Of a stretch of 64,000 nucleotides of DNA, positions 57,188 through 58,631 are shown one piece after another. The stretch is taken from positions 364,474-428,473 of the forward strand of contig NZ_SLXP01000001.1 of NCBI RefSeq assembly GCF_004343075.1, written 5' to 3'. The notes beneath the pieces are model-generated. The model did not search any database, had not been told where the DNA came from, and saw nothing but the letters and a program-made list of their open reading frames with translations. Source of the stretch: Rhodovulum marinum (GTDB taxonomy: Bacteria; Pseudomonadota; Alphaproteobacteria; Rhodobacterales; Rhodobacteraceae). Both the position numbers and the translations under genes were made by a program. Position 1 is the first letter of the stretch. Each line of letters starts with the position of its first letter.

Positions 57188-57215
57188 TTGAAAAACACGT
57201 TCATTTCTCGATAGT
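57188..57215 (+). promoter_or_regulatory. probable sigma-70 promoter of repeat-protein gene
   Basis: TTGAAA (57188-57193) and GATAGT (57210-57215) are 16 bases apart, matching -35 and -10 consensus at 5 and 4 positions. The strong RBS AGGAGG follows and the ATG is at 57236, leaving a very short leader. It is the clearest promoter in the window. Confidence 0.55.
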
Positions 57216-57235
57216 TTAACGCACAGGAGGCACCC

Positions 57236-57661
57236 ATGGCCGACAAGACGACCGAACAGCTGATCGACGACCCGACTCCGTTCTCAAGCAAGTTCGGCTG
57301 GCCGCTGCTGAGCACCCGAAAGCCGAATATCGACCTCGACCGCGTCAGTTCCACGCCGTTTTCCAGCATGCTGAACCTGCCGTTGCTGTCGCAGGGGCGG
57401 ACGACGTCGACGGAACTGAGGACCGACGATCCGACACCGTTTTCACGCCGGTTCAACTGGCCGATGCTGAGTGGGCGGGCCACGAATGTCGAGCTGAAAA
57501 CCAACGACCCCACGCCGCTGTCGCGCGCACTGAACCTGCCGCTGCTGAGCGATCGGGCAACGGTCGCTGGCGGCGAGGTTTCGGGCGGCAGTTCGGGCGC
57601 ACCGGACAATGCCTTTTCCAAGTTCATCCGGCAGATCATCACCGGCGAAGTACAGAAATAA
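57236..57661 (+). CDS. four-repeat small protein of unknown family
   Basis: A 141-residue protein with four repeats of 26-27 residues. The TPFS motif occurs at 14-17, 40-43 and 67-70 and as TPLS at 93-96. P[LM]LS lies 9 residues later each time (23, 49, 76, 102). Repeats 1 and 3 carry DDPTPFS plus aromatic residues (FGWPLLS, FNWPMLS), and 2 and 4 carry LNLPLLS, so a two-repeat block seems duplicated. The tail is SGGSSGAPDN, then NAFSKFIRQIITGEVQK, probably helical. No signal peptide or membrane segment. AGGAGG lies 6 bases before the ATG, a promoter upstream and a strong hairpin downstream, implying high expression. I know no family like it. A structural or binding role is as likely as a peptide precursor. 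Confidence 0.82.
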   Translation: MADKTTEQLIDDPTPFSSKFGWPLLSTRKPNIDLDRVSSTPFSSMLNLPLLSQGRTTSTELRTDDPTPFSRRFNWPMLSGRATNVELKTNDPTPLSRALNLPLLSDRATVAGGEVSGGSSGAPDNAFSKFIRQIITGEVQK

Positions 57662-57667
57662 CGCGAT

Positions 57668-57699
57668 CGCGCGGCGCGGCATGCGGTCCGCGCCGCGCG
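57668..57699 (+). terminator. 12-bp hairpin after repeat-protein gene
   Basis: CGCGCGGCGCGG pairs perfectly with CCGCGCCGCGCG around an 8-base loop, starting 6 bases after the TAA. No T-run follows. It is probably a terminator or a 3' stabiliser for an abundant short mRNA. Confidence 0.6.
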
Positions 57700-58265: not shown

Positions 58266-58631
58266 ATGACCACGACATTTCCGGCTCTTGCGAGCCTGCT
58301 GACCACTGCCGGGGCGCTGGCGCTTATGGTGAAGGGCGCAACGCGCTGGCGCGCGGCACGCCGGGCACCGCGCAGCCCCGCCACACCGCCGCCGATGCCC
58401 CGCGAGCCCGCACCACCGCCTTCCCGTGCCCCGCGGCGCACGGTCGCCCGGCCCGATGGCACCTGCGCCGGATGCGGCACGCCGATCCCGGGCACCGACA
58501 GCCATTGCGGCATCTGCGCGCGCAAGCAAACGGCCAGCCCCGATGCGGGCCGGACCGCACTGCTGCACTGGGCTTTCACGATCGTGGTGCTGACGATGAT
58601 CTACGGCGCGGGTTACCTCTTGGCGCCGTGA
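58266..58631 (+). CDS. small membrane protein with zinc ribbon
   Basis: A 121-residue protein. An N-terminal hydrophobic segment (FPALASLLTTAGALALMV) is followed by a Pro/Arg-rich linker and a four-cysteine ribbon, CAGCGTPIPGTDSHCGICAR (C-x2-C-x10-C-x2-C, about 76-95). A second membrane segment follows at the end (LLHWAFTIVVLTMIYGAGYL). AGGA precedes the ATG by 8 bases. Function unknown. It may form a unit with the preceding small gene, 57 bases upstream. Confidence 0.55.
   Translation: MTTTFPALASLLTTAGALALMVKGATRWRAARRAPRSPATPPPMPREPAPPPSRAPRRTVARPDGTCAGCGTPIPGTDSHCGICARKQTASPDAGRTALLHWAFTIVVLTMIYGAGYLLAP

Follow-up and report, generated by a model that had tools for sequence, protein, structure and literature searches.

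The window, a stretch of 64,000 nucleotides of Rhodovulum marinum DNA, contains a gene for a protein of 141 residues that is built from four repeats and a C-terminal tail (Table 1). The repeat cores are located at residues 15, 41, 68 and 94, giving a spacing of 26, 27 and 26 residues, and the same period is seen in the DNA as four 38-nt copies in steps of 78, 81 and 78 nt, with the three other copies 68–79% identical to the reference copy. Both spacings bear out the four repeats of 26–27 residues that a first-pass annotation of this DNA had read in the open reading frame. Its proposal that a two-repeat unit was duplicated is in line with the match between repeats 1 and 3 (78% identity across 64 nt of DNA). 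The alternation of aromatic and leucine repeats, as judged by eye, also occurs in loci L009 and L011 and is less clear in L013–L015. In a 13-member alignment, the columns occupied in the window protein by serines 17, 26, 70 and 96 are invariant. Comparison of the window gene with three relatives gave pN/pS values of 0.44, 0.48 and 0.53, and across every pairing of these four genes (six pairs) the values are 0.30–0.82, indicating that the window gene is coding and under moderate to weak purifying selection.

AlphaFold modelled the window protein poorly (pLDDT 52, pTM 0.17), with a short helix for each repeat core and one in the tail, where the low-confidence helix is predicted for residues 125–136.

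The signals named by the first-pass annotation were largely recovered. The promoter-like site matches the consensus at 9 of 12 positions and was found once against a mean of 0.1 in shuffled sequences, which is a consensus match only, and the AGGAGG was seen before the start codon. The 3' hairpin has a perfect stem of 12 bp (57668–57679 with 57688–57699); however, no T run follows the stem, and the hairpin is missing from the output of the terminator scan. A gene for a CxxC-type protein is located further downstream in the window; its relatives occur in 4 of the 16 Rhodovulum genomes including the own genome. Three of them have it immediately after the group A gene, and in G008 it lies elsewhere.

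Table 1. Features of the four-repeat gene and its surroundings, in window coordinates
Feature	Position	Strand	Residues or sequence	Basis
CDS, four-repeat protein, Rhodovulum group A	57236..57661	+	141 aa	ORF, relatives, pN/pS
Repeat 1, aromatic type	57269..57346	+	residues 12–37, core TPFSSKFGWPLLS	
Repeat 2, leucine type	57347..57427	+	residues 38–64, core TPFSSMLNLPLLS	
Repeat 3, aromatic type	57428..57505	+	residues 65–90, core TPFSRRFNWPMLS	
Repeat 4, leucine type	57506..57583	+	residues 91–116, core TPLSRALNLPLLS	
C-terminal tail, alike in groups A and B	57614..57658	+	FSKFIRQIITGEVQK	alignment
Sigma-70-like promoter	57188..57215	+	TTGAAA-16-GATAGT	consensus match only
Shine-Dalgarno sequence	57225..57230	+	AGGAGG, 5 nt ahead of ATG	
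GC-rich 12-bp hairpin without T run	57668..57699	+		
Protein with CxxC-type zinc-ribbon-like motif and hydrophobic ends	58266..58631	+	121 aa	by eye

Four groups of paralogues in Rhodovulum

Genes at the loci compared here were predicted by an in-house caller, and some were named by eye. Places matching the window protein at E 0.01 were found in all 16 Rhodovulum genomes, with 2–5 per genome in a tally where some genes count as two places, and in none of the 45 non-Rhodovulum genomes of the same search. The own genome has three clear extra copies (E 1.3e-8 or better), one of which adjoins pucBA. Four groups of paralogues are separable by sequence and neighbours. Group A, to which the window protein belongs, has four or five repeats followed by the tail, and its gene neighbourhood differs between most species. 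Group B has two or three repeats with an A-like tail, and in the six loci read it adjoins one and the same pair, a small membrane-protein gene and a TetR-type gene. Group C has three or four repeats and its own N-terminus, and is without the tail. Group D has two repeats and a basic C-terminus, and its usual neighbours, named by eye, are HAD-phosphatase-like and peptidase-like genes. Three group B proteins (L005, L018 and L022) carry an additional N-terminal array of repeats of ~10 residues, TNPQVETKTM.

Group C beside the LH2 operon

In 10 of 12 distinct Rhodovulum genomes, the comparison covering 12 of the 16, the group C gene is arranged divergently to pucB of the LH2 operon pucBAC. The distance between the start codon of group C and the VWPTGLT codons of pucB is 407–435 nt. 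R. imhoffii (L074) and R. robiginosum (L076, the same as L055) are the two without a C-type gene next to pucB in the stretch read. In the own genome, the products of pucB and pucA score above the cut-off of Pfam LHC. The sequence TGTN12ACA, which we take to be a PpsR/CrtJ-like pattern, is present in each of the 10 distinct regions upstream of group C, compared with 0.35 expected from shuffles. It is absent upstream of groups A (0 of 8, a set that includes one group B gene, L030), B (0 of 6) and D (0 of 7). Since the region between group C and pucB is shared, the PpsR-like site may serve pucBA alone. The stretch that separates pucB from group C contains a conserved site, TGTCAACGNAGNCTNACA, in all 10 distinct sequences (L038 8453–8855 and its equivalents).

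A puc-linked protein with similar repeats in the Rhodobacteraceae

Search of 394 genomes of the family (393 genera) with the profile of the window family gave only the two Rhodovulum genomes and a weak place in G399 (E 9.5e-4). The latter is a protein of 230 residues, encoded directly after the PucC gene (PF03209, E 1.3e-112), in which an N-terminal domain is followed by repeats containing PLLSDRKP. With this protein as the query, matches at E 1e-4 or better, referred to here as X, were found in 43 of the 394 genomes. All 43 are among the 166 genomes with Photo_RC genes (Fisher p = 2e-18). PucB was found in all 45 genomes with X or a Rhodovulum match (43 and two) and in only 6 of the 80 genomes tested among the 121 RC-positive ones without an X match. 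Two of these six (G224 and G248) do encode X after pucC, and X is thus carried by 45 of the 49 non-Rhodovulum family genomes in which pucB was found. In the four others (G090, G130, G150 and G291), which are LH2-positive and by eye resemble the Rhodobacter/Cereibacter type, X was not seen near the puc genes.

X is on the contig and strand of pucB in 42 of 43 genomes, with a gap of 1,849–3,352 bp (median 1,916); in G061, X and pucB are on different contigs. X usually lies directly after pucC, with its start less than 100 bp from the pucC stop in all 27 of the 32 loci for which the distance was measured and with a 4-bp overlap in 14. The puc linkage of group C and X and the co-occurrence of X with LH2 genes link the family to LH2, and it is highly probable that the family as a whole is associated with this antenna. 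X lies equally close to pucC and pucBA, a position that would suit an LH2 assembly factor just as well as a subunit of the ring. The repeats of such a factor would hold new α–β units or bacteriochlorophyll transiently, together with PucC and outside the finished ring.

Two further features were seen at these loci. In L119 (8172–10103, minus strand), two tandem X genes encoding 345 and 227 residues lie behind pucBAC, the longer product having many 25-residue repeats. PucA has 106–123 residues with a long C-terminal extension in the X-bearing L116, L117, L120, L121, L125 and L131, 51 residues in the X-bearing L115, and 54 residues in the Cereibacter-type L152.

Relatives in Rhodopila and other families

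The architecture of X is shared by proteins of Rhodopila globiformis and of uncultured Rhodopila, and L078, L080, L081 and L082 are Rhodopila loci with two or three neighbouring genes for YflT-like domains with repeats. No puc gene was recognised in the 12 kb read at the Rhodopila loci. Search of 385 genomes of the class with the Rhodopila profile gave 30 genomes at E 1e-4 or better, among them the own genome. The nine best class-level loci (L153–L161), checked for motifs within stretches of 2.2–3.7 kb, show the pucB motif in 9 of 9, pucA in 8 and pucC in 6. An apparent lack of pucC near the class-level X was ruled out by this wider motif check. X is placed between pucA and pucC in L157, L158 and L161, and in L153 and L155 it has a pucBA pair on either side. 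The PucB and PucA proteins of L155 both give a match to Pfam LHC. Repeats are seen in all eight X proteins inspected at these loci. In L159 (1264–2484), from another family, X has only one repeat-like core and is oriented divergently to pucBA, like group C of Rhodovulum. The weak class-level matches L163, L166, L168, L170 and L172 were rejected as X; they match mainly in the N-domain and are glycine-rich and repeat-free.

Homology of the repeats

A repeat HMM was built from 39 Rhodovulum units. With it, 22 of 35 X proteins exceed the best of 1,800 shuffles (7.4 bits), the top score being 84.8, and the other 13, some of which have plain repeats by eye, are not above this ceiling. As a control, 819 other proteins from the loci score at most 2.4 bits, after 63 family-like proteins had been removed by pattern. 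Alignment of the Rhodovulum repeats with hhalign gave a probability of 98.7 against Rhodopila and of 98.2 against X. The repeat spacing is 25–28 residues in the six Rhodovulum proteins measured, and 25, multiples of 25, or 27 in four X proteins. In Rhodopila, the steps are 17, 17, 26, 16, 16 and 26 residues in L082 and 16, 16, 26, 16, 16 and 26 in L080, where the first 26 is split into 19 + 7 by an extra pattern match. Judged by these profiles, the repeats of the window family and X are homologous. The model of a Rhodopila member has a pLDDT of about 88 in the N-domain and below 45 in the repeats. Such low-confidence models of the repeats fit, but do not prove, chains that would become ordered only on a partner.

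The first-pass annotation had also considered a repeat precursor of a modified peptide. The protein is small, repeated and without a known domain, as such a precursor, or a protein unrelated to photosynthesis, could be. However, no adjoining modification or maturation gene was recognised by eye, and homologous repeats occur within larger, puc-linked proteins, which leaves the precursor idea unsupported and makes either explanation extremely improbable.

Database and literature searches

The window protein has no match in Pfam or NCBIfam, and the relatives scanned have none above the cut-offs of these databases. PF16582 (TPP_enzyme_M_2) was returned for 3 of 10 members of the family alignment A1 (best E 2.7e-6) and was rejected; in one member the match covers 12 residues at 12 bits, compared with a cut-off of 30.1, and the match is taken as a shared GWPLL-like stretch. 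Sequence searches of the PDB gave six matches for the window protein at E 0.75 or worse, and matches at E 0.26 or worse for profile A1 and E 0.33 or worse for an X protein, all of which were taken as chance. Foldseek with the Rhodopila model gave BMC shell and PII proteins (best E 0.094), which was regarded as a generic alpha/beta fold. Plasmid records gave no match to the X protein or the window protein.

No paper on the window repeat family was found in the literature searched, which covered few subscription papers and no preprints, nor was the family found in passages of PMC11762602, PMC9230146, PMC6052148 and PMC4949548. The family therefore appears to be undescribed, being nameless in Pfam, NCBIfam, the PDB and the literature searched. 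The absence of a known domain and the novelty claimed at first pass hold so far, and the profile search with the repeat protein placed it in no known family. The suggestion of a scaffold or multi-copy binding protein also holds so far, as the repeats resemble a repeated binding motif.

Possible role at LH2

The sequences and their gene linkage suggest that the family product binds LH2. We infer that group A, the unlinked paralogue represented by the window gene, acts on LH2 in the same way as the linked group C and X. In the preferred reading, to which we give a probability of about one half, the window protein is a belt subunit of LH2 with one repeat for each α–β unit. The repeat of 26–27 residues, TP[LF]SxxxxWPLLSxRKxxxEL, would lie at the membrane surface as a short motif docking onto a single α–β unit of LH2. 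With one repeat docked per unit, the chain would form a belt along the ring, as LH2-γ does in Rps. palustris. The invariant serine of each repeat could be the ligand of one additional bacteriochlorophyll; this addition of pigment by the repeats is a tentative proposal, held to be less likely than not. More broadly, belts that add one bacteriochlorophyll per repeat may constitute a widespread modular class in Alphaproteobacteria, distinct in sequence type, rather than a peculiarity of Rhodopseudomonas. Of this class Rhodovulum would have amplified free-standing paralogues with two to five repeats, a picture that we hold to be conceivable rather than probable. Such a class may have been overlooked because laboratory models of the Rhodobacter/Cereibacter type seem to be without it. 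If it exists, belt swapping could tune the antenna size and the 800-nm absorption in Rhodovulum.

Several points count against the belt. The repeats show no sequence kinship with LH2-γ, the window gene is located away from the puc genes and has no PpsR-like site, four LH2-positive genomes show no X, and two Rhodovulum genomes and Rhodopila are exceptions to the puc linkage. The 13 X proteins below the shuffle ceiling and the poor model of the four-repeat protein also count here. In addition, the assembly of functional R. sulfidophilum LHII in a mutant of R. sphaeroides has been reported, and rings may therefore form without any member of the family. The pucC motifs in six of the nine class-level loci also weaken the belt and strengthen its main rival, the assembly factor. 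This explanation is further favoured by the position of X directly after pucC, often with the 4-bp overlap, in the Rhodobacteraceae and by its placement between pucA and pucC in the three class-level loci mentioned above. It also agrees with the role of PucC, described in a study of R. sphaeroides as directing LH assembly (PMC4949548). However, the near-fixed spacing of the repeats would better suit a chain along a ring of identical units, and L154, L156 and L159 show pucBA without a pucC motif, a weak point as the stretches are only 2.3–3.7 kb. On balance, an assembly factor is considered less likely than the belt.

A divergence of group A was also considered, in which the same docking motif would be directed to another target, such as LH1–RC or the intracytoplasmic membrane, and the C-terminal helix would be a second binding site. 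Such a change would fit the neighbourhood of the window gene, where no puc genes are seen by eye, and the tail that groups A and B share and group C is without. However, the repeats of groups A and C are very alike in their cores, and no RC or LH1 genes were recognised by eye near the group A genes (window, L040, L043 and L075), making the divergence quite improbable. The belt along the LH2 ring is retained as the preferred reading of the window protein.

LH2 is among the best-studied photosynthetic antennas, yet a further conserved gene adjoins pucB in 45 of 49 non-Rhodovulum genomes of the family. Should the ring or pigments be bound by the repeats, the stoichiometry normally given for LH2 would lack a component in many phototrophs. 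What LH2-γ does, reported from one genus, would then become testable across many of them.

Comparison with known systems

X resembles the window protein in its homologous repeats and in its link to phototrophs and LH2. It differs in the N-terminal YflT-like alpha/beta domain, for which the window protein, with repeat 1 starting at residue 12, has no counterpart, and in its location in or beside the puc operon, where the group C paralogue but, by eye, not the window gene is found. Pfam YflT (PF11181) weakly resembles three Rhodopila N-domains (E 0.03, 0.032 and 0.12, below the gathering score), and this resemblance is not seen in L059 or L082 in the same scan. Rhodobacter capsulatus has two extra genes behind pucBAC, encoding PucD and PucE, one of which is an LH2 gamma chain. 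The likeness lies in the gene arrangement, with extra genes following pucBAC.

The closest parallel in form is LH2-γ of Rps. palustris, a chain of 97 residues with six repeats of the type EYKGHSGHPLIKQEG (Qian et al. 2022, PMC9618040; PDB 7zcu chain S). It forms an extended ribbon that passes round six of the nine α–β units, a serine in each repeat ligates one bacteriochlorophyll with more 800-nm absorption as the result, and it is reported only in Rhodopseudomonas (PMC9618040). The window family, in contrast, spans Rhodovulum, Rhodopila and further genera, has repeats of 25–28 residues in Rhodovulum, and is tied to LH2 by the gene linkage of relatives of the window gene. No kinship to the EYKGHSGHPLIKQEG-type repeats was found with hhalign (probability 0.08) or with the repeat HMM (−0.9 bits), and a PDB search with the family profile at E 10 did not return 7zcu_S; by sequence, the window family is not a member of the family of LH2-γ. 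The likenesses are those of design. Both are small repeat chains tied to LH2, in the window family by its genes, without a globular domain; both have a serine and a P-L-(I/L) step per repeat; and the period of ~16 residues of LH2-γ recurs in the Rhodopila relatives, mixed with the Rhodovulum-like period of 26 residues. By this analogy, the window family may perhaps work like LH2-γ.
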